From positions 62,001-126,000 of the forward strand of contig NZ_JADWYS010000001.1 of the NCBI RefSeq assembly GCF_015831345.1: a stretch of DNA of 64,000 nucleotides, given 5' to 3'. Within the stretch, counting starts at the first letter, position 1; every line of letters starts with the position of its first letter. The notes under the pieces are model-generated. The model did not search any database and was not told where the DNA came from. It saw nothing but the letters and a program-made list of their open reading frames with translations. This stretch comes from Caenimonas aquaedulcis (GTDB taxonomy: Bacteria > Pseudomonadota > Gammaproteobacteria > Burkholderiales > Burkholderiaceae_C). Shown here piece by piece: positions 21,880 to 41,381 of this stretch. Both the position numbers and the translations under genes were made by a program.

Positions 21880-21953
21880 GGGGCTCTCCAGGGGCGGCTG
21901 ATCGAGGCCCGCCGGAGCGGGCCGGAACCATCGTACACACGATGGGCGGCCCC

Positions 21954-22165
21954 TGCTGTCCCTTTTACCTGAGAGATTCGCCCGCCTCATCCGTGGGGAT
22001 GCGGCGGGTTTGCTCCTTCGGTGGATCGCCTTCCCCGCGGGGCGGCGACCTCTCTCCAGCAAGGTGACGCCCCGCGATGGAAGCGCCTTGTCAGTCCTGT
22101 TTGCCTGAGCGTTCGGCTATGCGCCTGCGCCTTCGGCGGCTCCCTTGCGGGGGCTCTCTCCTGAC
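21954..22165 (-). promoter_or_regulatory. Tandem glycine riboswitch upstream of gcvT
   Basis: Two glycine aptamers in series on the minus strand. Aptamer 1 (22165-22090) opens GTCAGGAGAGAGC, contains GCCGAAGGCGCAGGC and ends CGCTCAGGCAAACAGGACTG, its first and last five bases pairing (GTCAG/CTGAC). Aptamer 2 (22061-21954) opens TGCTGGAGAGAGG, contains CCACCGAAGGAGCAAAC and ends AATCTCTCAGGTAAAAGGGA, closed by TGCTG/CAGCA. This is the classic conserved core of both aptamers. Downstream of aptamer 2 come two short hairpins and the gcvT ribosome binding site, with no U-tract, so control is probably translational. Confidence 0.95.
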
Positions 22166-22172
22166 GGGTTGG

Positions 22173-22178
22173 AGTATA
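22173..22178 (-). promoter_or_regulatory. Candidate -10 hexamer for the gcv operon
   Basis: TATACT on the minus strand lies 3 bp downstream of the etfD stop codon and about 7 nt before the first paired base of riboswitch aptamer 1, an ideal spacing for transcription to begin at the aptamer. The corresponding -35 box would fall inside the etfD coding end and is not a good match (CGAATT). Inference. Confidence 0.4.
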
Positions 22179-28401: not shown

Positions 28402-29169
28402 TCAAGCCGCCCGAATGTTCCGGACCTGCTCGGCCGCCACAGCCACACCGCGGATCACGTCGCCGACGACGATGACGGACGGACTCGCGAGTGCTTCGCG
28501 CGCGATCGTCGATTGCAGTTCGCCGAGGGTCGTCACCGCATGCCGCTGATCGGGCAGGCTCGCGCGCTGCACGATCGCGACCGGGGTGGAAGCGGGCAGG
28601 GCGCTGAGCAGGCCCTCCTGGATGCGGCCCGCGCCACTCACGCCCATGTAGATCACCAGCGTCAGGCGCGCATCGCGTGCCGTCGCCGCCAGCGCGCGCC
28701 AGTCCGGCCCCTGCGTGCCCGGTTGCGCGTGGCCCGTGACGAACACGACGCCATGGGCATGCTCGCGGTGCGTGAGGGGCACGCCCAGCGAAGTCACCGC
28801 CGCGAGGCCGGAGGTGATGCCGTTCACCACATGCACGTCGACGCCCGCGGCTCGAAGATGCTCGACCTCCTCGCCGCCGCGGCCGAAGATGAACGGGTCG
28901 CCGCCCTTCAGCCGCACGACGGTTTCGCCTTCCTTGGCGGCCATCACCATCAGCTTCTCGATGAAGGCCTGCGGCGTGCTCTTGCAGCCGCCGCGCTTGC
29001 CCACGTGGACGACGCGGGCGTGCGGCGAAGCGAGGGCGACGATCTCCGGGCTGACGAGGTCGTCGACCAGCAGCACGGTGGCAGCCTGGATGGCGCGCAT
29101 CGCCTTGATGGTGAGGAGTTCGGGGTCGCCGGGGCCGGCGCCGACGAGGGTGACTTGACCGGTGTTCAT
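28402..29169 (-). CDS. cobA: Uroporphyrinogen-III C-methyltransferase
   Basis: 255-residue SUMT. It methylates uroporphyrinogen III at C2 and C7 to precorrin-2, the precursor of siroheme. Family motifs are VGAGPGDPELLTIKA, VRLKGGDPFIFGRGGEE and GITSGLAA. It lacks the CysG dehydrogenase/chelatase domain, so those steps must be encoded elsewhere. It is the last gene of the nitrate operon and supplies siroheme for NirB. The ATG at 29169 overlaps the ybiB stop by 4 bp. Confidence 0.95.
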   Translation of the reverse strand: MNTGQVTLVGAGPGDPELLTIKAMRAIQAATVLLVDDLVSPEIVALASPHARVVHVGKRGGCKSTPQAFIEKLMVMAAKEGETVVRLKGGDPFIFGRGGEEVEHLRAAGVDVHVVNGITSGLAAVTSLGVPLTHREHAHGVVFVTGHAQPGTQGPDWRALAATARDARLTLVIYMGVSGAGRIQEGLLSALPASTPVAIVQRASLPDQRHAVTTLGELQSTIAREALASPSVIVVGDVIRGVAVAAEQVRNIRAA

Positions 29170-30145: not shown

Positions 30146-32938
30146 CTAGGCGGCCTGCGGCAGCGGCATGGAGGCGCGCACCATTCGCTTCAACTCGGGG
30201 AGGCAGGAGCCGCAATTGGTGCCGCACTGCAATGCAGCTTGAAGCGAATCAAGCCGCTCCTGCTCGCTGCCGGTTCCCTCGGCCAGTTGCGCCGAAATGG
30301 CCATGTCGGTCACGTTGAAGCAGGTACAGACCTGCTTTCCGCGCGACTGGACGGCGACCGGTGTCTTCGCGCCGGGTACGAGCAGCAGCCGGCCGTAGGC
30401 CTGCGCGGGCAGTTCGTCCTGCAGCAGCGTCTTGATCCACGCCTGGGCGCTCGTGTCGCCCGCCAGGACGAAACCTTCCAGCCGCGCTTCATCGCCGTGG
30501 CGCACGAGGCGCATCGCGCGCCGCTGGCCCTTCCTGCGGTCGGCATAGCGCAGCGCATCGGCGCCCGCCACGCCGAACAGGTGCTCGATGCGGTCCATCA
30601 CCGCATCGGGCGGGGCCTCGTGGCCGGCGGCCCGCAGCAGCACCCCGGCACGCTCGCGGCCGAACGGCACGCACGACGAAAACGGAAACAGCGCCATGAC
30701 CTGCCGGAGTTCTTCGCGCACATGCAGGGCGGATCCTTCCGGCAGCCAGGCCACCGCCAGCAGCGACCAGGGCAGCTCCGCCTTGAGGATCTTCACGGCG
30801 GCGTGCTTGAGTTCCGGCTGCTTCGACGTCGGGCAGAACGCGGAGGTGGTGAGCGCATTCACGCCCGCCAGCGGCTGGCCCGTGTTGGAGAGGCCCCCCA
30901 GGTATTCACCGCCCCAGTGCATCGCCATGAACGCCTGGCTCAATCCCACCTGCTCCGTACCCTGCACCGGCACCACGATGGAGCCGCGCTTGCTCGTGAG
31001 GTGCACGAGGTCGCCCTCGGCGAGGCCGCGGCGCTGCATGTCCTGCGGATTCATCTGCACCGAGGGCTCGGCGACATGCCCGAACAGGCGTCCGAGCGTG
31101 CCGGTGCGGCTCATGCCGTGCCACTGGTCGCGCAGGCGCCCGGTCGTGAGGGAGAAAGGGAAGCGCGATTCGCGCGGCTCCGCGACGGGGCGGTAGGTCA
31201 CGTTCGCGAAACGCGCCTTGCCGTCGGGCGTGGGAAAGATGCCGTCTTCGTACAGGCGCAGCTTGCCCTGTGCTTCGCCGCTTCGCATCGGCCACTGCAG
31301 CGGCGCCTTCTCCAGCAGCGCATAGCTCATGCCCGTGATGTCGAGGTCGCGGCCGCGCGTGGACTCGCGGTGCTCGTTCCACACGGCTTCCACGCCCGCT
31401 TCCGGTGCGGTCGTCGAGTAGGGGAAGAGGGTGGCGATGCCGGGCCGCAGCTTGCGCTCCAGCCGGCGCGCGAAGTCGACGGCGATCGCCCAGTCGTGGC
31501 GCGTGCTGCCCGGCGGCGGCACTGCGGGCCGCACGCGGCTGATCCGGCGCTCGCTGTTGGTGACGGTGCCGGTCTTCTCTCCCCAGGTGGTGGCCGGCAG
31601 CAGCAGGTCCGCATAGTCGCAGGTCGCCGTCGTGAGGAAGGCCTCCTGCACCACGACGAATTCCGCGCGCTCGAGCGCACGGCGCACGGTGGCCTGATCG
31701 GGCATGGACTGCGCGGGGTTCGTGCACGCGATCCACAGCGCCTTGATCTCGCCGTCGGCCGCGGCCTGGAACATCTCCACCGCCGTCTTGCCCGGCTTCT
31801 CCGGCACGGACGGGACGCCCCACAGCGCCGCCACTTCGGCGCGGTGCTGCGGGTTCGCGAGGTCGCGATGCGCGGACAGCAGGTTGGCCAGTCCGCCGAC
31901 TTCGCGCCCGCCCATCGCGTTGGGCTGGCCCGTGAGCGAGAACGGTCCTGCGCCCGGCCGGCCGATCTGCGCGGTGGCGAGGTGCAGGTTGATGAGCGCC
32001 GCATTCTTCGCCGTGCCGCTCGTCGACTGGTTCAGGCCCTGGCAATAGAGGCTGAGCGTGGCAGGCGACGTCGCGAAGAGGCGTGCGGCCTCCAGCAGGT
32101 CTTCCTTGCGGATGCCGCACACCTGCGCGACGCTGTCGGGCGTGCAGTCGCGCACCGTGGCCTTCAGCTCGTCGAAGCCGCTGGTGTGCCGGCCGATCCA
32201 GTCATGCCGCACCCAGCCTTCCCACAGCATGACGTGCAGCATGCCGTGGAAGAGCATCACGTCGGTGCCGGGCTGGATCGCGAGGAACAGGTCCGCGATA
32301 TCCGCGGTGTCGGTGCGGCGCGGGTCGCAGCAGACGATCTTCATCGCCGGGTTGGCGGCGCGCGCCTCCTCGATGCGGCGGAACAGCACCGGGTGCGCCC
32401 ACGCCGCGTTGCTGCCGGCGATGAAGATGCAGCCCGCGTGGTTCACGTCGTCGTAGCAGCTCGGCGGCGCGTCCGCGCCGAGCGTCATCTTGTAGCCCGC
32501 CACCGCGCTGCTCATGCACAGCCGCGAATTGGTGTCGATGTTGTTGGTGCCGATGAGGCCCTTGGCCAGCTTGTTGAAGACGTAATAGTCCTCGGTGAGC
32601 AGCTGGCCGGAGATGTAGAAGCCCACCGCGTCCGGGCCGTCCGCGCGGATCACCTGCGCGAAGGTTTCCGTCGCGAAGCCCAGCGCCTGGTCCCAGGACA
32701 CGCGCGTGGCACGTTCGCCGCGGTGCTCGCGCCGCATCGGGTGCAGGAGGCGCACCTGCTGCGTCACCGCCGCCGCGGCCGTGAGGTGCAGCGTGGAGCC
32801 CTTGGAGCACAGCTTGCCGAAGTTGGCGGGATGGTCCGGGTCGCCGCGCACGCCGGTGATCTGCGCGCCGTCGCTCTCGATGATGACCCCGCAGCCGACC
32901 CCGCAGTACGGGCAGGTGGAACGGGTCTCCTGCGTCAT
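30146..32938 (-). CDS. nasA: Assimilatory nitrate reductase catalytic subunit
   Basis: 930-residue molybdopterin oxidoreductase. The N-terminal [4Fe-4S] ligands are in CPYCGVGCGVII and KLCSKGSTLH; the Mo-bis-MGD domains fill the middle (for example AGSNAAWAHPVLFRRIEEAR, CQGLNQSTSGTAKNAALINL). A C-terminal BFD-like [2Fe-2S] domain (about residues 860-925) carries VCTCFNVTD and CGTNCGSCLPELKR, as in Klebsiella-type NasA that takes electrons from a flavoprotein or ferredoxin. No signal peptide: cytoplasmic. ATG 32938 overlaps the nirD stop by 4 bp. No separate NasC-like electron donor gene is present here. Confidence 0.95.
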   Translation of the reverse strand: MTQETRSTCPYCGVGCGVIIESDGAQITGVRGDPDHPANFGKLCSKGSTLHLTAAAAVTQQVRLLHPMRREHRGERATRVSWDQALGFATETFAQVIRADGPDAVGFYISGQLLTEDYYVFNKLAKGLIGTNNIDTNSRLCMSSAVAGYKMTLGADAPPSCYDDVNHAGCIFIAGSNAAWAHPVLFRRIEEARAANPAMKIVCCDPRRTDTADIADLFLAIQPGTDVMLFHGMLHVMLWEGWVRHDWIGRHTSGFDELKATVRDCTPDSVAQVCGIRKEDLLEAARLFATSPATLSLYCQGLNQSTSGTAKNAALINLHLATAQIGRPGAGPFSLTGQPNAMGGREVGGLANLLSAHRDLANPQHRAEVAALWGVPSVPEKPGKTAVEMFQAAADGEIKALWIACTNPAQSMPDQATVRRALERAEFVVVQEAFLTTATCDYADLLLPATTWGEKTGTVTNSERRISRVRPAVPPPGSTRHDWAIAVDFARRLERKLRPGIATLFPYSTTAPEAGVEAVWNEHRESTRGRDLDITGMSYALLEKAPLQWPMRSGEAQGKLRLYEDGIFPTPDGKARFANVTYRPVAEPRESRFPFSLTTGRLRDQWHGMSRTGTLGRLFGHVAEPSVQMNPQDMQRRGLAEGDLVHLTSKRGSIVVPVQGTEQVGLSQAFMAMHWGGEYLGGLSNTGQPLAGVNALTTSAFCPTSKQPELKHAAVKILKAELPWSLLAVAWLPEGSALHVREELRQVMALFPFSSCVPFGRERAGVLLRAAGHEAPPDAVMDRIEHLFGVAGADALRYADRRKGQRRAMRLVRHGDEARLEGFVLAGDTSAQAWIKTLLQDELPAQAYGRLLLVPGAKTPVAVQSRGKQVCTCFNVTDMAISAQLAEGTGSEQERLDSLQAALQCGTNCGSCLPELKRMVRASMPLPQAA

Positions 32939-33294
32939 CCGGCGGTGGCGGTGTCGGTCGCCAGCGTCGCGAGTTCCACCGGGTCCATCAGCACCCGGCC
33001 CGCCTCGACCTTGCAGGAGAATTTCTGGGTGCATCCCTCGTCGGGCGCCTTGGCGCAACCGTCGTCCAGGCCGATGGTCCAGTTGTGCAGCGGGCAGGCG
33101 ACGCTCGTGCCGAAGACGATGCCCTGCGACAGCGGGCCGCCCTTGTGCGGGCACCGGTCCAGCAGCGCGAACACCTGGTCCTGGTCGTTGCGGAACACGG
33201 CCACGTCGGTGCCGAGCGGGCGCGCGACGCGCCGCGATCCCAGCACGGGGATGTCGTCGACGCGGCAGATCACGGTCCAGTCCTTCATGTTCAT
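32935..33294 (-). CDS. nirD: Nitrite reductase small subunit, Rieske type
   Basis: 119-residue NirD. Unlike E. coli NirD, which lacks cluster ligands, this one keeps a complete Rieske motif, CPHKGG and CPLHNW (C-x-H ... C-x-x-H), separated by 16-17 residues, so it can carry a [2Fe-2S] cluster. It is the partner of NirB in NAD(P)H-dependent nitrite reduction. ATG 33294 is taken (a second ATG two codons in is possible); it overlaps the nirB stop codon by 4 bp and the nasA start by 4 bp. Confidence 0.93.
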   Translation of the reverse strand: MNMKDWTVICRVDDIPVLGSRRVARPLGTDVAVFRNDQDQVFALLDRCPHKGGPLSQGIVFGTSVACPLHNWTIGLDDGCAKAPDEGCTQKFSCKVEAGRVLMDPVELATLATDTATAG

Positions 33295-35738
33295 GCCGTC
33301 TGCTCCACCGGCGCGATCTTGATGAACTGCCGCGTGTCCACGGACGCCTTGTCGTGCTCGAACCAGGGGTCGGGCTCGCCATCCAAACTGAACTGCAGGC
33401 GCTCCCACAAGGCCTTGCGGCCTTCCGCGTCATCCAGCACCTTCTTCTTCACGTAGTCCAGGCCGACGCGGTTGATGTAGTGCACGGTGCGCTCGAGGTA
33501 CCAGCCCTCTTCGCGGTAGAGCTGCAGGAAGGCGCCGCTGTACTCGAGCACTTCCTGCGCGGTCTTGAGCTTGACGAAGAAGTGGGCCACCTCGGTCTTG
33601 ATGCCGCCGTTGCCCCCGACATAGATTTCCCAGCCGGAGTCGACGCCGATCACGCCCACGTCCTTGATGCCCGACTCCGCGCAGTTGCGCGGGCAGCCCG
33701 ACACGGCGAGCTTCACCTTGTGCGGCGCGTACATGCGCCAGAGCGCGCGCTCCAGGTCCTTGCCCATCTGCGTGCTGTCCTGCGTGCCGAAACGGCACCA
33801 CTCGGAGCCCACGCAGGTCTTCACCGTGCGCAGCGCCTTGGCATAGGCGTGGCCGGACGGCATGCCGATGTCCTTCCACACATCCTGCAGGTCTTCCTTC
33901 TTCACGCCCAGCAGGTCGATGCGCTGGCCGCCCGTGACCTTCACCGTCGGGATCTTGTACTTGTCCACCGCGTCGGCGATGCGGCGCAGCTCGTCGGCCG
34001 TCGTCTCGCCGCCCCACATGCGCGGGATCACCGAGTAGGTGCCGTCCTTCTGGATGTTGGCGTGGCTGCGCTCGTTGATGTAGCGGCTCTGCGGATCGTC
34101 CTTCGCCTCCTTGGGCCAGGTGGACAGCAGGTAGTAGTTGATCGCGGGGCGGCAGCTTGCGCAGCCGTTGGGCGTGCGCCATTCCATGAACTTCATCGTG
34201 TCCGCGATCGCGAGCAGGTGGTTCGTCCTGATCGCTTCGCGCACCTCCTGGTGGCTGTGGTCGGTGCACCCGCACATCGCCTTCCTCTTCGGCGCGGCGG
34301 AGTAGTCGCCGCCGGCGGTGAACATGAGGATCTGCTCCACGAGCCCCGTGCACGAGCCGCAGCTCGCGCTCGCCTTGGTGTGCTTCTTCACCTCGTCGAT
34401 GGTAAACAGGCCCTTCTCCTTGATCGCCTTGCAGATCGTGCCCTTGTTCACGCCGTTGCAGCCGCACACTTCCGCGTCGTCGGGCATGGAGGCCGCCTTG
34501 GTGTGGCCCTCATGGCCCGCGTCGCCGAGGCTCGATTCGCCGAACATCAGCTTGTCGCGGATGTCGCTCACGTTGCGGCCGTCGCGCAGCAGCTTGAAGT
34601 ACCAGCTGCCGTCCACCGTGTCGCCGTAGAGGCAGGCACCCACCAGCTTGTCGTCCTTGAGCACCAGCTTCTTGTAGACGCCGCCGAAGGGATCGCTCAT
34701 CACGATCTCTTCCGTGCCTTCGCCGCCCATGAACTCGCCGGCGGAGAAAAGATCGATGCCCGTCACCTTCAGCTTGGTCGAGGTGAGCGAGCCGGTATAG
34801 CGGCCGATGCCGAACCGGGCGAGGTGGTTCGCCGCCACCTTCGCCTGTTCGAAGAGGGGCGCCACCAGCCCGTAGGCGATGCCGCGGTGCGCCGCGCACT
34901 CGCCGACCGAGTAGATGCGCGCATCCGTCACGGTCTGCATCGTGTCGTTGACCACGATGCCGCGGTTGCAATGCAGGCGCATGCTCTCGGCGAGCTGCGT
35001 GTTGGGCCTGATGCCCACTGCCATCACCACCAGGTCTGTCTCCACCCGGGTCCCGTCCTTGAACCTGATGGCGGTCACGCGCCCGTCGGGCCCGCCTTCC
35101 AGCTCCTGCGTCTGCGCGCCGATCATGAATTTCAGGCCGCGGTCTTCCAGCGACTTCTGCAGCAGCTTGCCTGCCACGTCGTCGAGCTGGCGCTCCATCA
35201 GCCAGGGCATGACATGCACCACGGTGACGTCCATGCCGCGCAGCATCAGCCCGTTGGCCGCTTCCAGCCCGAGCAGGCCGCCGCCGATGACCACGGCCTT
35301 CTTGTACTTCGTCGACGCCTCGATCATCGCGTTGGTGTCCGCGATGTCGCGGTAGGCGATGACGCCCTGCAGGTCCTTGCCCGGCACCGGCAGGATGAAG
35401 GGGTTGGAGCCTGTGCACATCAGCAGGCGGTCGTATTCCTCCTCGGTGCCATCCTCCGCGCGCACGATGCGGCGGACGCGGTCCACTTCCACCACCTTCT
35501 TGCCGGCGTGCAGGCGGATGTGGTTCTCCGCATACCACTCCCAGGAGTTGAGGATGATCTCGTCGACGGTCTGCTCGCCTGCAAGTACCGGCGACAGCAG
35601 GATGCGGTTGTAGTTCGGGTGCGGCTCCGCGCCGAACACGCTGATGTCGTAGAGCTCGGGCGCGACCTTCAGGAGCTCCTCGAGCGTGCGCACGCCGGCC
35701 ATGCCGTTGCCGATCATCACGAGTTTCGATTTCTTCAC
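33291..35738 (-). CDS. nirB: NAD(P)H nitrite reductase large subunit
   Basis: 815-residue siroheme nitrite reductase that reduces nitrite to ammonium. Domain order: FAD/NAD disulfide-reductase fold (MIGNGMAGVRTLEELLKV; VVIGGGLLGLEAANGLMLRG), two BFD-like [2Fe-2S] segments (VCGCNGVNKGTICKA and CGSCTG; CGCTDHSH and CASCRPAINYY), then the sulfite/nitrite reductase ferredoxin and siroheme halves with cluster ligands in GSEWCRFGTQDS and SGCPRNCAESG. Start GTG 35738 follows GGGAGAGCGAA; homology begins at KKSKLVMIGNG. It overlaps nirD and lies 22 bp after nrtD. Confidence 0.95.
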   Translation of the reverse strand: MKKSKLVMIGNGMAGVRTLEELLKVAPELYDISVFGAEPHPNYNRILLSPVLAGEQTVDEIILNSWEWYAENHIRLHAGKKVVEVDRVRRIVRAEDGTEEEYDRLLMCTGSNPFILPVPGKDLQGVIAYRDIADTNAMIEASTKYKKAVVIGGGLLGLEAANGLMLRGMDVTVVHVMPWLMERQLDDVAGKLLQKSLEDRGLKFMIGAQTQELEGGPDGRVTAIRFKDGTRVETDLVVMAVGIRPNTQLAESMRLHCNRGIVVNDTMQTVTDARIYSVGECAAHRGIAYGLVAPLFEQAKVAANHLARFGIGRYTGSLTSTKLKVTGIDLFSAGEFMGGEGTEEIVMSDPFGGVYKKLVLKDDKLVGACLYGDTVDGSWYFKLLRDGRNVSDIRDKLMFGESSLGDAGHEGHTKAASMPDDAEVCGCNGVNKGTICKAIKEKGLFTIDEVKKHTKASASCGSCTGLVEQILMFTAGGDYSAAPKRKAMCGCTDHSHQEVREAIRTNHLLAIADTMKFMEWRTPNGCASCRPAINYYLLSTWPKEAKDDPQSRYINERSHANIQKDGTYSVIPRMWGGETTADELRRIADAVDKYKIPTVKVTGGQRIDLLGVKKEDLQDVWKDIGMPSGHAYAKALRTVKTCVGSEWCRFGTQDSTQMGKDLERALWRMYAPHKVKLAVSGCPRNCAESGIKDVGVIGVDSGWEIYVGGNGGIKTEVAHFFVKLKTAQEVLEYSGAFLQLYREEGWYLERTVHYINRVGLDYVKKKVLDDAEGRKALWERLQFSLDGEPDPWFEHDKASVDTRQFIKIAPVEQTA

Positions 35739-35760
35739 TTCGCTCTCCCTTGGGTTGCGT

Positions 35761-36612
35761 TCAGGCCCGCAGGGCGACTTCGGCCGCGGCGGGCCTGGCC
35801 CGCGCCGCGGCAATGGGCTCGACCTTGCGTTGCTTCTCGTACAGGAAGGTGAGGATTTCCTGGCGGCAATGGTTGTAGGTGCGGTCCTCCGCGAGCTGGA
35901 TGCGGTTGCGCGGGCGCGGCAGGTCGATCGGCAGGATCTGCCCGATGGTGGCCGACGGCCCGTTCGTCATCATCACCACGCGGTCGGAGAGCAGCACGGC
36001 TTCGTCCACGTCGTGCGTGATCATCATCACGGTATTGCCCAGCTCCGACTGGATGCGGATCACCTCGTCCTGCAGGTGCGCGCGCGTGAGCGCGTCCAGC
36101 GCGCCGAAGGGCTCGTCGAGCAGCAGCACCTTGGGCTCCATCGCGAGCGCGCGGGCGATGCCCACGCGCTGCTTCATGCCGCCGGAGATTTCCGAAGGCA
36201 GGCGGTTGAGCGCGTGCGACATGCTCACCATCTCCAGGTTGCGCAGGATCCATTCCTTGCGCTCGGCTGCCGTCTTCGTTTCGCGGAAGATCTTGTCGAC
36301 GGCGATCTCGACGTTCTGGTAGACCGTGAGCCAGGGCAGTAGCGAGTGGTTCTGGAACACCACCGCGCGATCCGGCCCGGGGGCGTTCACCTCGCGGTTG
36401 TCGAGGATCACGCCGCCCGAGGTTGCGCGCAGCAGGCCGGCGACGATGTTGAGCACCGTCGACTTGCCGCATCCCGAGTGGCCGATGAGCGAGATGAATT
36501 CGCCGCGCTGGATCGCGAGGTCGATGCCGCTCAGCACGGGGTTGGCGGACGGCCCGTTGCCGAAGACCATGTCGACCTGCGAAAGGGTGAGGTAGGCGTT
36601 GGTGTTGCTCAT
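35761..36612 (-). CDS. nrtD: Nitrate ABC transporter ATP-binding protein
   Basis: 283-residue ATPase of the nitrate/sulfonate/taurine ABC family. Walker A is GHSGCGKST (about residues 43-51), the signature motif SEISGGMKQR, Walker B VLLLDEPFGALD, and the switch His in MMITHDVDEA. A C-terminal tail after about residue 245 is Ala/Arg-rich. It is a stand-alone NrtD-type subunit with no NrtC-like fused regulatory domain. ATG 36612 starts 11 bp after nrtB. Energises nitrate uptake with NrtA and NrtB. Confidence 0.93.
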   Translation of the reverse strand: MSNTNAYLTLSQVDMVFGNGPSANPVLSGIDLAIQRGEFISLIGHSGCGKSTVLNIVAGLLRATSGGVILDNREVNAPGPDRAVVFQNHSLLPWLTVYQNVEIAVDKIFRETKTAAERKEWILRNLEMVSMSHALNRLPSEISGGMKQRVGIARALAMEPKVLLLDEPFGALDALTRAHLQDEVIRIQSELGNTVMMITHDVDEAVLLSDRVVMMTNGPSATIGQILPIDLPRPRNRIQLAEDRTYNHCRQEILTFLYEKQRKVEPIAAARARPAAAEVALRA

Positions 36613-36623
36613 GGCGGTTCCTT

Positions 36624-37481
36624 TCAGCTCGCGGAGGTGCCGCGGGTGATCTTTCTTCCGATGAAGGCGACGATGCGGTCGAGCAGGAAGCCGATGATCC
36701 CGACGTAGACGAGCGCGAGGATGATGTCGCTGATGCGCGAGGAGTTCCACGCGTCCCAGATGAAGAAGCCGATGCCCACGCCGCCGATCAGCATTTCCGC
36801 CGCGATGATCGCGAGCCAGGACAGGCCCACGCCGATGCGAAGCCCGGAGAAGATGAAGGGCGCCGCGGCGGGCAGCATGATCTTCACGAAGTACTCGATG
36901 CCGTTCAGGCGGATCACCTTCGCGACGTTGCGGTAGTCCTCGGGGATGTTGCGGATGCCGATCGAGGTGTTGATGATGATCGGCCAGATCGACGTGATGA
37001 AGATGACGAAGATCGCGGAAGGGTGCCCGTCGCGAAAGCCGGCCAGCGAGATCGGCAGCCACGCGAGCGGCGGCACGGTGCGCAGTACCTGGAACAGGGG
37101 GTCGAGCCCGCGCAGCGCCCAGGTCGACTGGCCCACCAGCACGCCCAGGCTCACGCCCACCACGACGGCGATGGAGTAACCGAAGGCCACGCGCTTCAGG
37201 CTCGCGATGAGCTGCCACGCGATGCCGACGTCGTTGCCGCCGCGGTCGTAGAAGGGGTGCACGATCAGCTCCCAGGTGTCCTGCACCACCTTGCTGGGCG
37301 GCGGCAGCGACGCGCCGGGGCGCGAGCCCAGCAGCTGCCAGATGACCAGCAGCAGGCCGATCACGATGATGGGCGGCAGGACGTGGGTCGCCAGGTACTT
37401 GCCCGTGTTCTTCAGCGCCGCCATCCCGGGCTTGGCGCGGGGTGCATCGGCGAGCGGCAGGGCGGTGGTGATCGCGTTCAT
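36624..37481 (-). CDS. nrtB: Nitrate ABC transporter permease
   Basis: 285-residue inner-membrane permease with about six hydrophobic segments and the BPD_transp_1 EAA-like loop (EDYRNVAKVIRLNGIEYFVK). The FRDGHPSAIFVIFITSIWPI and LSWLAIIAAEMLIGGVGIG stretches are characteristic of nitrate/nitrite permeases NrtB/NasE. ATG 37481 lies 9 bp after the nrtA stop. Forms the channel of the NrtABD transporter. Confidence 0.94.
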   Translation of the reverse strand: MNAITTALPLADAPRAKPGMAALKNTGKYLATHVLPPIIVIGLLLVIWQLLGSRPGASLPPPSKVVQDTWELIVHPFYDRGGNDVGIAWQLIASLKRVAFGYSIAVVVGVSLGVLVGQSTWALRGLDPLFQVLRTVPPLAWLPISLAGFRDGHPSAIFVIFITSIWPIIINTSIGIRNIPEDYRNVAKVIRLNGIEYFVKIMLPAAAPFIFSGLRIGVGLSWLAIIAAEMLIGGVGIGFFIWDAWNSSRISDIILALVYVGIIGFLLDRIVAFIGRKITRGTSAS

Positions 37482-37490
37482 GCCTGCCCC

Positions 37491-38804
37491 TTACGCCGAC
37501 TTGATGTTCTTGATCGCCAGGCTGTCGAGGTACTTCTTCGGGTTGGCCGGGTCGAACACCTTGCCGTCGAAGAATTTCTCGACACCCCGCGACGTGGACG
37601 TGGGGATGTCCTTCGCGGCGACGCCCAGCTCCTTCGCCGCGGCGCGCCAGATGTCCTCGCGGTTCACCTTGGCGATGAGCGACTTGGTGTCCAGGTTGGG
37701 CGGCAGGTAGCCCCAGCGCTGGTTCTCGGTGAGGAACCACAGGTCGTGGCTCTGGTAGGGGTAGGACGCGTTGTCCTTCCAGTAGCGCATCTGGTACTTG
37801 CTGTTGGATTCGACGCGGCCCGTGCCATAGTCGAAGTCGCCCTTGATGCGGTCGACGATGTCCTCCACCGGCGCGCTGATCCAGCGGCGGCGCGAGCAGA
37901 TCTCGGCGACTTCGGCGCGGTTCTTCGGGTCTTCGCAGAACATCTGCGCTTCCATGATGGCCTTCAGCAGTGCCTTGGTCGCGTTGGGATTGGCGGCGAC
38001 GTAGTCCGCGCGCATCGCGAAGGCCTTCTCCGGATGGTTCATCCAGAGTTCGCTGGTCGTGAGCGCGGTATAGCCGATCTTCTGGTTGATCAGTTGCCGG
38101 TTCCAGGGCTCGCAGACGCAGAAGGTGTCCATGCTTCCCACCTTCATGTTGGCGACCATCTGCGCCGGCGGCACCACGATGGTCGTGATGTCACGGTTGG
38201 GATCGACGGCGCCGGCGGCCATCCAGTAGCGGATCCACAGGTCGTGCGTGCCGCCGGGGAACGTCATCGCGGCGTTCACCGGCTTGCCGGTCTTCAGGCG
38301 CTTGGCGAGCAGGGCCTTGCCGAACTCCTTGTTGTCCAGGCCGACCTTCAGGTCCTTGTATTCGTTGGCGACCGAGATGCCCTGGCCGCCGAGGTTCAGG
38401 CGCGCCAGGATGTTCATCGGCACCGGCACGTTGTTCGCGGTGACGGCGCCCGTGCTGATGAGGTAGGGCATGGGCGTGAGGATGTGCGCGCCGTCGATGC
38501 CGCCGGATTTGGATCCCAGCACGAGGTTGTCGCGCGTGGCGCCCCAGGATGATTGCTTGGCGACCTCGACTTCCGTCATGCCGTGCTTCTTGAAGAATCC
38601 CTTCTCGTCGGCGACGAAGAGGGGCGCGGCGTCGGTGAGCGCGATGAAACCGAGCTTGGCGGCCTTGGTTTCCAGCGTGGTCCCCTGCGCGTGGACCCGG
38701 GGCGCGAAGCCCGCCACGAGGCTCGCGCCCCCGAGCGCCGCGGCGCCCTTGATCACGGTACGGCGCGAGAGTTGCGCGGTCTTGCCTGAAGAATTGCCTT
38801 GCAT
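37491..38804 (-). CDS. nrtA: Nitrate ABC transporter substrate-binding protein
   Basis: 437-residue periplasmic nitrate-binding protein (NrtA/NasF/CmpA family). Twin-arginine signal SRRTVIKGAAALGG near residue 14, probably cleaved after VHA. The mature part has LGFIALTDAAPLFVADEKGF and the nitrate-binding FPGGTHDLWIRYWMAAG. ATG 38804 is preferred over ATG 38816 because GGAG lies 7 nt upstream. It is the first structural gene of the nitrate operon and its transcript starts with the ANTAR-type attenuator leader. Confidence 0.94.
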   Translation of the reverse strand: MQGNSSGKTAQLSRRTVIKGAAALGGASLVAGFAPRVHAQGTTLETKAAKLGFIALTDAAPLFVADEKGFFKKHGMTEVEVAKQSSWGATRDNLVLGSKSGGIDGAHILTPMPYLISTGAVTANNVPVPMNILARLNLGGQGISVANEYKDLKVGLDNKEFGKALLAKRLKTGKPVNAAMTFPGGTHDLWIRYWMAAGAVDPNRDITTIVVPPAQMVANMKVGSMDTFCVCEPWNRQLINQKIGYTALTTSELWMNHPEKAFAMRADYVAANPNATKALLKAIMEAQMFCEDPKNRAEVAEICSRRRWISAPVEDIVDRIKGDFDYGTGRVESNSKYQMRYWKDNASYPYQSHDLWFLTENQRWGYLPPNLDTKSLIAKVNREDIWRAAAKELGVAAKDIPTSTSRGVEKFFDGKVFDPANPKKYLDSLAIKNIKSA

Positions 38805-38824: not shown

Positions 38825-38884
38825 AAAAAAACAAAAAGGCGTCCACCCCAGCAGTCGCACATGTGCAACTCGGGAATGGACGCC
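38825..38884 (-). terminator. Attenuator terminator in the nrtA leader
   Basis: On the minus strand GGCGTCCA (38884-38877) pairs with TGGACGCC (38845-38838), with a further inner stem (AGTTGCACA/TGTGCGACT), followed directly by TTTTTGTTTTTTT. It is a strong intrinsic terminator 20 bp upstream of nrtA, on the same strand, so by default it would stop the operon transcript. Its 5' arm overlaps antiterminator hairpin P2. Confidence 0.9.
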
Positions 38885-38930
38885 GTTGTCCGGGTTGTGA
38901 GGAATGTCCTCGGGCGCCGCCGTTGGCGCC
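38878..38930 (-). promoter_or_regulatory. ANTAR-target antiterminator hairpins P1 and P2 (NasR leader)
   Basis: P1 is GGCGCC-AACGGC-GGCGCC (38930-38913) and P2 is GGAC-AACGGC-GTCC (38891-38878): two stems with identical six-base loops having A at loop position 1 and G at position 4, the known recognition rule for ANTAR antiterminators. The P2 3' strand and loop share bases with the terminator's 5' arm, so P2 and the terminator exclude each other. NasR, encoded immediately upstream, has an ANTAR domain. Predicted outcome: nitrate/nitrite-bound NasR stabilises P1-P2 and lets the polymerase into nrtA. Confidence 0.85.
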
Positions 38931-38948
38931 TAACCATGGAGCAGGACA

Positions 38949-38964
38949 TGCAGGGACCGTGCCA
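38949..38964 (-). promoter_or_regulatory. Sigma-54 (-24/-12) promoter of the nrtA operon
   Basis: Minus strand TGGCACG-GTCC-CTGCA matches the consensus TGGCACG-N4-TTGCW with one mismatch and the invariant GG-N10-GC spacing. The predicted start, near 38938, is about 8 nt before hairpin P1, exactly where a leader should begin. Confidence 0.7.
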
Positions 38965-38994: not shown

Positions 38995-39043
38995 GCGCAC
39001 GCATTTGGGGTGCGCGGTGGATTCCGGGGCACGCTTTGCGTGC
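38995..39043. promoter_or_regulatory. Two GCAC/GTGC dyads, candidate NtrC enhancer
   Basis: 39029-39043 is GCAC-N7-GTGC, exactly the NtrC half-site arrangement; 38995-39015 is GCGCAC-N9-GTGCGC, a related perfect dyad with two extra spacer bases. Their centres are 31 bp apart (three helical turns), at about -67 and -98 from the predicted sigma-54 start, a plausible enhancer placement. Confidence 0.45.
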
Positions 39044-39060: not shown

Positions 39061-40287
39061 TCAGCGCGGGCGGCCGGGCAGCATGTCGGCCATCGCGAGG
39101 ACGGCCTCCGCGACATCCACGAGGCGGCGCTTCTGGTTCATGGCCATCTGCCGCAGGCTCTTATAGGCCTCCTCCTCGCTCAGTTGCCGGTGCGCCATGA
39201 GCAGGCCCTTGGCCCGCTCGACCACCTTGCGCTCATTGAGTGCGCCGCGCACCGTGTCGAGCTCGTCGCTCATCGCCTGCAGGCGACGGGACTGCTCCTG
39301 CACCAGGTCGAAGACCGAGCGCTCCAATTGGGGGCCGAAGCGCGCCAGTCCGGACGCGTCCTGCGCGCCGGCCTGCCGGTGCAGGCCGTCCATCACGGCC
39401 TTCTGGTTGCGCAGCGCGTCGCGCGCTTCGGCGATCTTGCGCTCGCACAAGCGCCGCAGGTTGGCGGCCAGCAGGTCCTCGATGGCGCGCATGGCGTCGA
39501 GCCGCTGGGTGCAGCAGTCGTACCAGACCAGCACGGCCCCGCTTTCGGCGGGCCCGTCGGCCAGCGCCCACCCGACCCGGCGCAGGCGCTCGAGTTGCGC
39601 GAGCGTGCGGTCGTCGTGGCTGGCGTGCTCGGCCGCGACGGCCTGCGCGTCGGCGAAGTCCGCGAAGACCTGGAAGCACTGCTGCTGCTGCTCGATGAGG
39701 TGGCGCCATTCGCGCTGCCCGGGCGCGTCGATGCGGCCGCTGGCGAAGGTCGCCGAGCCGAACGCGCGCTCCTGCCCCGCGAATTCCTTACCCTGCATGT
39801 AGTTGAACATCGCCACCAGCGCGCGGGAGATTTCCGGGTCGCCGGCACTGTCGGCCGCTTCGAACACCACGGCGAGCAGGCCGGCGACGAGCCGCGCATA
39901 GGCCTCGGTCGCCCCGCGCGGGGTCATGGCCTGAGTGGCGACGCGCGAGCGCAGCTCCGGCAGGCCGTCCAGCGCCTGCAGCACGACGGCCACGCGGTGA
40001 AAGAGGCGCGCGCCGTTCTGCACGCGCTGCCCGTCGGCGCCCAGGCGCTCGAAGCTCTCGATGGTCTCGCGCTGCAGCGCGTCGCACTGCGCCATCTGCT
40101 GCACGCGCATGTCGCCGAATCGCTCGCCGCGCGAGGCGAGGTAGATGTTGGAGATGCCGCGCTCGCGCTGCAGGGCGTGGTTGAAGCGCCCGATCACACC
40201 CACGAGTTCGCTCGTCCGCGCGAGGCGTTCGAGCTCGTCGATTTCGCACTGGCGTGCGGCGAGCAGGTAGCTGAGTCCGGACTTCAT
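39061..40287 (-). CDS. nasR: Nitrate-responsive ANTAR antiterminator
   Basis: 408 residues. About residues 25-300 form the all-helical NIT nitrate/nitrite sensing domain ([20 protein letters not shown] is its hallmark). About residues 340-400 form the ANTAR RNA-binding domain, with [17 protein letters not shown] and [14 protein letters not shown] followed by LVDVAEAVL. In Klebsiella, NasR binds the nasF leader when nitrate is present and prevents termination. Here the matching leader lies directly downstream. A sigma-54-like element ends 12-13 nt before the ATG with no ribosome binding site, so its own message may be nearly leaderless. Confidence 0.93.
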
Positions 40288-40299
40288 CGGCCGTGATTC

Positions 40300-40315
40300 A
40301 GCAACAACCGTGCCG
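40300..40315 (-). promoter_or_regulatory. Sigma-54 (-24/-12) element upstream of nasR
   Basis: Minus strand CGGCACG-GTTG-TTGCT matches the sigma-54 consensus with one mismatch and correct GG-N10-GC spacing. Predicted start is 1-3 nt before the nasR ATG. It lies in the 65-bp gap to the divergent tsaD, so any enhancer would fall in tsaD. Confidence 0.6.
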
Positions 40316-40352
40316 CACGAGGGAAAAAGGGGCGGCGATTAGACTCGTCGGC

Positions 40353-41381
40353 ATGAAGGTACTGGGAATCGAATCGTCGTGCGACGAGACGGGCGTGGCG
40401 CTGGTGGAAACGCGCGCTGCGGGCGTGCCCGTGCTGCTGGCGCAGGCGCTGCACACGCAGATCGTCATGCACCAGGCCTATGGCGGCGTGGTGCCGGAGC
40501 TGGCGAGCCGCGACCACATCCGCCGCGTGCTGCCGCTGGCGGAGCAGGTGCTGGAGCGGGCCGGAGTCGCCAAGGCCGAGCTGGACGTCATTGCGTACAC
40601 GCGCGGCCCGGGGCTCGCCGGCGCCTTGCTCGTCGGGTCGGGGGTCGCCTGTGCGCTCGGTGCGGCGCTGGGCAAGCCTGTCCTTGGCGTGCACCACCTC
40701 GAAGGCCACCTGCTGTCGCCCTTCCTCAGCGCGGACCCGCCGGAGTTTCCGTTCATTGCGCTGCTCGTCTCCGGCGGCCACACGCAGCTCATGCGCGTGG
40801 ACGGCGTGGGGCGCTACGAATTGCTGGGGGAGACGATCGACGACGCGGCGGGCGAAGCTTTCGATAAATCGGCCAAGTTGCTGGGGCTGCCGTACCCGGG
40901 CGGGCCCGGGCTCTCGCGCCTGGCCGAAAGCGGGGACCCGGCGGCGTTCAAGCTGCCGCGTCCCTTGCTGCACAGCGGCGACTTGGATTTTTCTTTCGCG
41001 GGACTGAAGACCGCTGTGCTCACGCAGGCGAAGAAGCTGGGAGACGAGCTCGAAGCACGCAAGGCGGACCTCGCGGCGTCCACGCAGGCGGCGATCGTCG
41101 ACGTCTTGGTGAAGAAGTCGCTCGCGGCGCTGGATCGCAGCGGGCTGCGCCGCATCGTCGTGGCCGGTGGGGTGGGTGCGAACCGGCTGCTGCGGTCCGA
41201 ATTGAATGCGGCGTGCGCGAAGCGTGGTGTCCGCGTGCATTACCCTGAGCTGGATTTCTGCACCGACAACGGCGCGATGATCGCGATGGCCGCGGCGATG
41301 CGGCTGCAGGCCAACGTGCAAGCGGCCACCGCGGTCTACGCCTTCGACGTGAAACCGCGGTGGCCGCTGGCCGAGCTGTAG
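40353..41381 (+). CDS. tsaD: tRNA N6-threonylcarbamoyladenosine synthase subunit TsaD
   Basis: 342-residue Kae1/TsaD ASKHA-fold protein that transfers threonylcarbamoyl to A37 of ANN-decoding tRNAs with TsaB, TsaC and TsaE. Start [14 protein letters not shown] is canonical; metal-binding His115 and His119 are in [11 protein letters not shown]; the ATP-binding VSGGHTQLM and the C-terminal [12 protein letters not shown] are intact. ATG 40353 begins at family homology. No ribosome binding site precedes it, but TAGACT ends 7 nt upstream. It converges on hsp20 with 6 bp between stops. Confidence 0.97.

Follow-up and report, generated by a model that had tools for sequence, protein, structure and literature searches.

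A putative NasR-type ANTAR attenuator with a hairpin in its linker precedes the nitrate assimilation operon of Caenimonas aquaedulcis

The leader between nasR and nrtA of Caenimonas aquaedulcis is very probably a transcription attenuator of the ANTAR type that is driven by NasR, a NIT-ANTAR protein, together with nitrate, is started by sigma54 and NtrC, and controls nrtABD-nirBD-nasA. The anatomy of the leader, the domains of the protein encoded upstream, conservation and covariation in relatives, the overlap of antiterminator and terminator, and the finding of a single ANTAR protein and a single significant leader genome-wide are direct observations. The type of system is already known, and what this leader adds is a small hairpin in the linker between its two hexaloop hairpins, as a possible variation.

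The RNA targets of EutV, AmiR and NasR are described as dual hexaloop hairpins with A1 and G4 in the loop (PMC3369931). Here we describe such a target in a stretch of 64,000 nt of the C. aquaedulcis genome (the window), follow it through relatives of the same family, and compare it with characterized leaders and with two Rfam entries.

Results

Architecture of the leader and the operon

Read along the minus strand, the region is ordered nasR, NtrC-like palindrome, sigma54-type promoter, P1, linker hairpin, P2, terminator, T-tract and nrtA (Table 1). The initial annotation had placed the two AACGGC hexaloop hairpins, the arms of the terminator (GGCGTCCA at 38884-38877 and TGGACGCC at 38845-38838, minus strand) and a T-tract 20 bp before nrtA, and all of these were recovered with the same letters and positions; the nrtA ATG is at 38804, 20 nt past the T-tract. 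The terminator, which has an inner hairpin at 38854-38869, begins inside the P2 loop. Bases 38884-38878, three of the loop plus the entire P2 3' arm, are common to both structures, which bears out the base sharing proposed earlier. Since P2 folds at only -4.0 kcal/mol and the terminator at -30.9 kcal/mol (P1, -11.9 kcal/mol), the terminator is expected to win unless P2 is held. The leader has two marks of an ANTAR target, namely a pair of stem-loops with six-base loops carrying A1 and G4, and a P2 that is mutually exclusive with an intrinsic terminator. The 114-nt leader as a whole folds at -54.6 kcal/mol (z -5.1), as low as none of 200 shuffles. Its description as a complete leader was right for P1, P2, terminator and T-tract but omitted the promoter, the NtrC-like site and the linker hairpin, which are new in the present analysis.

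Taken alone, the octamer pair CAACGGCG-N10-40-CAACGGCG is not significant, with 8 genomic occurrences against 12 of its reversed control. A sigma70 and simple-terminator scan gave no match; the terminator scan stays silent because the inner part of the terminator exceeds the length that its rule permits.

Table 1. Features of the leader and of the genes around it, by position in the window
Feature	Position	Strand	Support
cobA, uroporphyrinogen-III methyltransferase (siroheme for NirB)	28402..29169	minus	TIGR01469 280.4 bits, cut-off 185
nasA-like assimilatory nitrate reductase, 930 aa	30146..32938	minus	molybdopterin oxidoreductase domains
nirD, nitrite reductase small subunit	32935..33288	minus	TIGR02378 87.3 bits, cut-off 74.65
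nirB, nitrite reductase large subunit	33291..35738	minus	TIGR02374 932.2 bits, cut-off 578.35
nrtD, nitrate ABC transporter ATPase	35761..36612	minus	TIGR01184 339.6 bits, cut-off 291.8
nrtB, nitrate ABC transporter permease	36624..37481	minus	TIGR01183 315.6 bits, cut-off 209.05
nrtA, nitrate ABC transporter substrate-binding protein	37491..38804	minus	Pfam NMT1_2 6.2e-102
Terminator T-tract TTTTTGTTTTTTT	38825..38837	minus	
Intrinsic terminator stem, overlapping P2	38838..38884	minus	-30.9 kcal/mol, z -5.2
P2 hairpin (antiterminator) GGAC-AACGGC-GTCC, loop AACGGC	38878..38891	minus	
Linker hairpin GAGGA-CAT-TCCTC, between P1 and P2	38899..38911	minus	p 0.003 vs shuffles, -4.3 kcal/mol
P1 hairpin GGCGCC-AACGGC-GGCGCC, loop AACGGC	38913..38930	minus	
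Sigma54-type -24/-12 promoter TGGCACGGTCCCTGCA	38949..38964	minus	1 in 64 kb, 0.18 expected
NtrC-like enhancer palindrome GCAC-N7-GTGC	39029..39043		
nasR, NIT (residues 37-277) and ANTAR (346-397) regulator, 408 aa	39061..40287	minus	

Most gene names follow from models scoring above their cut-offs. For nrtA, searched against Pfam as a sequence one codon longer, no NCBIfam model exceeded its cut-off, and the name rests on its neighbours and on the orthologous place in Klebsiella, where the gene is annotated CmpA/NrtA. A GTG start was assumed for nirB, the TIGR02374 score having been obtained from the longer ORF 33291-35813. The nasA-like protein matches the Fdh-alpha, NasA and NasC models, each below its own cut-off, and is named from context. 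The cobA gene, on the same strand, appears to be part of the nrt operon. Farther along the minus strand lies a tandem glycine riboswitch (21946-22173; aptamers of 55.5 and 50.2 bits).

The regulator

The gene upstream of the leader had been called nasR, and this assignment is upheld by the domains of its product, which combines a NIT domain (Pfam, 7.9e-50) with a C-terminal ANTAR domain (2.9e-20), the combination that defines the NasR type. In the 4.52 Mb genome no ANTAR domain other than this one was found, and the idea of a second ANTAR regulator was rejected on this count. The protein is related to PDB 4akk, the nitrate regulatory protein NasR of K. oxytoca (E 3.8e-47). By our own reading of the alignment, in K. 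oxytoca numbering, E175/R176 of the predicted nitrate pocket, the RNA-binding residues R340 and R366, and K341 (all named in PMC7496416) are present, the position of N373 is K, and one of the five autoinhibitory pairs is kept in kind (D201-R366, as E-R). An alanine mutant of N373 in K. oxytoca NasR is reported to lack RNA binding, but N373 and the five autoinhibitory pairs are described as only modestly enriched (PMC7496416), and for that reason we did not take them as defining NasR. Counts of residue conservation among NasR relatives are probably lowered by a few wrong-frame protein readings. For the K. oxytoca protein, binding of P1P2 is reported to require nitrate or nitrite, and SELEX to have yielded a C:G closing pair (PMC7496416).

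The nasR gene diverges from a neighbor that we take, from its sequence, to be tsaD-like. The gap between them is very short (40287-40353), so that the nasR promoter would have to be compact or be located inside this neighbor.

Promoter elements

Promoters of the sigma54/NtrC class have GG at -24 and GC at -12 in fixed spacing, with GCAC-N7-GTGC upstream. Both the spacing and the upstream palindrome are present as sequence features ahead of P1, and +1 is predicted near 38938. The palindrome is weak on its own, with 6 occurrences in the window against 3.2 expected. Of the 63 leaders described below, 62 have a core sigma54 motif ahead of P1, as compared with 153 of 3150 control windows. In 37 of those 62 an exact NtrC motif falls in the 150 nt that precede the sigma54 motif, as compared with 49 of 2480 control windows. 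The distance from the predicted +1 to P1 is 1-13 nt in 53 leaders and 22-30 nt in nine.

Both rpoN and ntrC were found in the genome. The 3' end of ntrC lies at the left edge of the window (1 to about 131, plus strand), with the start of the gene preceding the window, and its product is the probable activator of the nrt operon. Because a sigma54-type promoter and an NtrC-like site stand just upstream, expression of the operon probably needs both nitrogen limitation and nitrate.

Conservation and covariation in relatives

We sampled 399 genomes of the family, and a NasR search returned matches in 287 of them, the weak matches including other ANTAR or NIT proteins. We read 92 distinct NIT-ANTAR loci, 68 with a NasR identity of at least 41% and 24 below it. 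A P2-like hairpin lies within 600 nt downstream of nasR at 64 of the 68; two more (L046, L061) have, by eye, a leader with a slightly altered P2 and enter no count of 63, and at the other two (L071, L099) no leader follows nasR. Below 41% identity a P2-like match was obtained at three of the 24 loci and none at 21, and two of the three (L095, L102) were dropped, the loose P2 search having caught another hairpin. Of 65 leaders with an accepted P2, two (L052, L103) yielded no P1 and were left out, giving 63 leaders with both hairpins; L014, L003 and L005 had been set aside as duplicates of WIN, L020 and L051. The leader of L003 (Ramlibacter aquaticus) is the same as that of G335, a genome listed under the genus of the window.

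The loop letters and the overlap of P2 with the terminator could each have been lost in relatives, and both losses were looked for. Dual hairpins with A1/G4 loops and a T-tract within 500 nt downstream occur at 38 of the 92 loci, whereas each of the other 15 loop-letter pairs gives at most one, and no loss of the A1/G4 loops was seen in close relatives. The terminator takes all four bases of the P2 3' arm in 58 of the 63 leaders, three in four leaders and none in one (an automatic call). A T-tract is present in 63/63 by a loose rule.

In P1, four of five pairs show two-sided changes among relatives, with a covariation score reached by none of 500 shuffles; the bare number of two-sided pairs was reached by 18 of 500. 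The P1 finder demanded A1, G4 and three inner pairs, and the P2 search word was GGACAANGGCGTCC; because these rules were preset, the invariance of the loops, inner P1 pairs and P2 among the 63 leaders is partly built in. Three observations are independent of the finder rules: the loop-letter control; a motif-free search, in which nearly every downstream dual ends in the same P2 core (L015 has an additional pair); and the outer two pairs of P1, which form in 46 and 43 of 53 rows.

Nine loci (L029, L032, L035, L040, L042, L043, L053, L054, L057) make up a subgroup of NasR leaders with the P2 loop AAAGGC, mostly bare linkers of 8-15 nt, and a stretch of 22-30 nt from +1 to P1 that holds a hairpin by eye.

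Distribution across the family

A covariance model was built from the window leader and 52 others, after one leader longer than 62 nt had been omitted and the remaining 62 thinned to 53 by removal of near-identical ones. In the 4.5 Mb genome the model scored its own locus at 50.6 bits, as expected with the window leader in the model; the next match (22.0 bits, E 0.076) was rejected as a second target. Across the family it found 132 places in 129 of the 399 genomes, spread over 69 of 141 sampled genera. Every one of the 129 genomes also belongs to the 287 that gave a NasR/ANTAR-like match (hypergeometric 5.6e-24). When the 65 genomes with a NasR-adjacent leader are removed, 64 of 64 do so (1.2e-13), which is the fairer figure because the model was built from NasR-adjacent leaders; relatedness inflates both statistics.

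The places divide into 65 directly downstream of a NIT-ANTAR gene and 67 elsewhere, 48 of the latter having been fetched (one twice) along with three narK places. In two sister genomes of one genus (L172, L173) a second sigma54-ANTAR attenuator stands before nirB, about 4.4 kb after the first, and genome G044 has two leader matches on different contigs. In wider sampling, a scan of named genomes gave 4 loci only, and 8 of 321 genomes in a class-wide sample matched at E 1e-25. Of ten loci from these two sources the model matched eight with E no higher than 1, odd insertions being present in some of the matches; Azospirillum L241 and L236 gave none.

Many of the leaders that are mostly not beside a NIT-ANTAR gene (L174-L223) have an extra hairpin right after the predicted +1. 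In 46 distinct ones, a C:G-closed six-base loop lies within 30 nt of +1 in 40, with A1 and G4 in 28; five of these 28 have the loop AACGGC and may be P1 itself. By rule, three hexaloops in a row are apparent in 24 of 48 leaders of this kind.

The linker hairpin

The linker between P1 and P2 in the window is 21 nt long, and 13 of these nucleotides lie in the hairpin. Linkers of at least 17 nt occur in 51 of the 63 leaders. On average these linkers fold at -4.76 kcal/mol and their shuffles at -2.91 (0/300 as low), and 39 of the 51 fold at -2.5 kcal/mol or lower, against 24 on average when shuffled. Chimeric linkers, in which the 5' and 3' halves come from different leaders, lost this folding. 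None of 5000 such half-swaps was as low for all 51 linkers, and the same held for the 40 below 80% identity and for the 14 below 60% identity (-6.22 vs -3.39), from which we conclude that the two halves are matched to each other. Two upstream control segments showed no effect (1711/5000 and 929/5000). Taken singly, the 14 non-redundant long linkers reach p 0.05 in five cases and p 0.1 in seven (Fisher 5.4e-5). Seven linkers of 16-23 nt have no or almost no hairpin (L023, L036, L058, L060, L062, L067, L075), which speaks against a simple spacer rule.

The part of the long linkers left unpaired is no shorter than in shuffles (mean 9.1 vs 9.5 nt; 90/300 as low), and a distance rule for the linker is therefore unsupported. 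Among leaders that for the most part lie away from a NIT-ANTAR gene, the linker is 6-17 nt long with little pairing in 43 of 49, although in 13 of the 49 the second hairpin taken by the script is other than the GGAC/GTCC one. Three leaders away from a NIT-ANTAR gene (L213, L215, L220) have linkers of 25-35 nt with a strong linker hairpin.

Linkers of 5-12 nt are reported for the eut leaders of E. faecalis (PMC3369931), and 2-25 nt were accepted in actinobacteria (PMC8164766). Extending the linker to 14 nt, or adding 20 nt to it, is reported to abolish EutV function, and the 21-nt linker of the window is longer than EutV tolerated in those tests (PMC3369931, PMC8934654). It is plausible that the linker hairpin is a spacer that folds a long linker away and sets the loops at the distance needed by the dimer.

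Relation to known systems and Rfam entries

A close counterpart is the nasR-nasF leader of Klebsiella, here in the record of K. pneumoniae CP125156 and not of M5al, the strain of the experiments. The likeness drawn earlier to this nitrate attenuator holds, the gene order (nasR, leader, nrtA-like, ntrB) being the same, as are a sigma54-like TGGCAT-N5-TTGC (by eye), P1 and P2 with A1/G4 hexaloops, and a terminator overlapping P2. The two NasR proteins are 32% identical, and our model finds the Klebsiella leader with 27.0 bits. The two leaders differ in that Klebsiella has, by eye, a bare 9-nt linker and a T-G pair closing P2, whereas the linker of the window is 21 nt long and contains a 5-bp hairpin, and its P2 is closed by a C-G pair. 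One Pantoea leader has, by eye, a bare linker of 10 nt. The EutV-eut and AmiR-ami leaders share the dual hexaloops, A1/G4 and a P2 overlapping the terminator (PMC3369931), but differ in their signals and sensor domains. The NalA/nirBD leader of Pseudomonas is described in a review as having a sigma54 promoter, NtrC control and NasT antitermination (PMC12830290); NasT is controlled by NasS, whereas the window has a NIT domain instead.

At gathering thresholds Rfam gives nothing at the window leader, and one tRNA only at the Klebsiella and Pantoea leaders and four other loci. Below threshold, the leader matches RF00625 P11 at 27.8 bits (E 1.3e-4 in 211 nt; gathering 70), with all 139 consensus positions covered, and RF03032 narK RNA over its full length (25.3 bits, E 0.004; gathering 43.2), scores that place the leader in neither family. 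The consensus lines of both hold a sigma54-like promoter and two hexaloop hairpins. That of RF03032 reads as a GGCAC...UUGC promoter, a P1 with the loop AACGGC and a P2, CGAC-AAAGAC-GUCG, for which Rfam gives no pairs; its linker is short, against 21 nt in the window. Within the family, 35 of 399 genomes matched narK RNA, none over threshold, and all 35 are among the 287 (5e-6). Of the 36 narK places 30 were fetched, and 24 of these have dual A1/G4 hairpins ending in a GGACAANGGCGTCC P2; five lack them by a strict rule and one is doubtful. Eight of the 24 have no T-tract by rule, and eight are NasR-type leaders by location. On the grounds of the consensus promoter and hexaloops, the co-occurrence with the 287 genomes and the 24 dual places, narK RNA and P11 probably describe ANTAR leaders. 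P11 and NalA may be the same RNA. Literature searches found no paper naming both P11 and NalA and, with the subscription literature mostly outside their reach, none calling narK RNA or P11 ANTAR leaders and none with 'narK motif' or 'narK RNAs'. The narK motif reportedly goes back to Weinberg et al. 2017.

Discussion

That the leader merely terminates the nasR transcript, with incidental hexaloops and an nrtA promoter elsewhere, would fit a structure that follows nasR and closes with a strong terminator. P1 is superfluous for such a terminator, yet it covaries, and we dropped the idea on this ground. The restriction of the loops to A1/G4, with 38 of 92 loci against at most one for any other letters, the sigma54 motif upstream of P1 in 62 of 63 leaders, and the recurrence of the module in two sister genomes, where it precedes nirB and is remote from nasR, also stand against it, and we regard it as very improbable. 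Equally remote in our judgment is an ANTAR attenuator driven not by NasR but by a NasS-NasT pair or another ANTAR protein. Roughly half of the family leader places (67/132) have no NIT-ANTAR gene immediately before them, and in Pseudomonas the NalA leader is described as responding to NasT (PMC12830290), but the one ANTAR domain found in the C. aquaedulcis genome is that of NasR.

The alternative for the linker hairpin leaves the attenuator itself unchanged. The hairpin could be a pause site or a competitor of P2 (an anti-antiterminator), not a spacer, and that it is kept while the unpaired part of the linker is no shorter than in shuffles would speak for such a role. In predicted folds of the window, however, no pairing of its arms with P2 is seen, EutV does not function with lengthened linkers (PMC3369931, PMC8934654), and little pairing is seen in the 6-17 nt linkers of leaders mostly not next to a NIT-ANTAR gene, subject to the 13 of 49 in which another second hairpin was taken. 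We consider a pausing or competing role possible but unlikely. A wider reading, offered tentatively and at slightly less than even confidence, is that many NasR leaders of the family are three-hairpin antiterminators in which a spacer kept in structure and free in sequence lets the RNA exceed the tolerated linker, that the same kind of element recurs in narK RNA and P11, and that relatives without an adjacent NIT-ANTAR gene often carry a third A1/G4 hexaloop on the 5' side.

For the NasR-driven attenuator that we favor, we infer promoter use, NtrC control, nitrate binding, RNA binding, read-through and the role of the linker hairpin. Speaking against it are the K at the position of N373, the autoinhibitory pairs that differ, a linker beyond the length that EutV tolerated, the two leaders that gave no P1 and the two loci of at least 41% identity where no leader follows nasR. 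Under nitrogen limitation, phosphorylated NtrC and sigma54 RNA polymerase would start transcription at about 38938, and the first RNA would fold into P1, the small linker hairpin and P2. If nitrate is lacking, the NasR dimer would be inactive, the far stronger terminator would capture the 3' arm of P2, and transcription would halt at the T-tract, short of nrtA. Once nitrate or nitrite occupies the NIT domain, the two ANTAR domains would grip both A1/G4 hexaloops and hold P2, whereby the terminator would be blocked and nrtABD-nirBD-nasA transcribed. The linker hairpin would probably fold the long linker away and leave the loops at the distance that the dimer needs.

The nitrate-assimilation operon would then stand under two stacked controls, nitrogen limitation and nitrate. 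The linker hairpin offers a way to test directly how strict an ANTAR dimer is about the spacing of its two loops, and, if narK RNA and P11 are indeed ANTAR leaders, two Rfam entries would gain a regulator and a signal.
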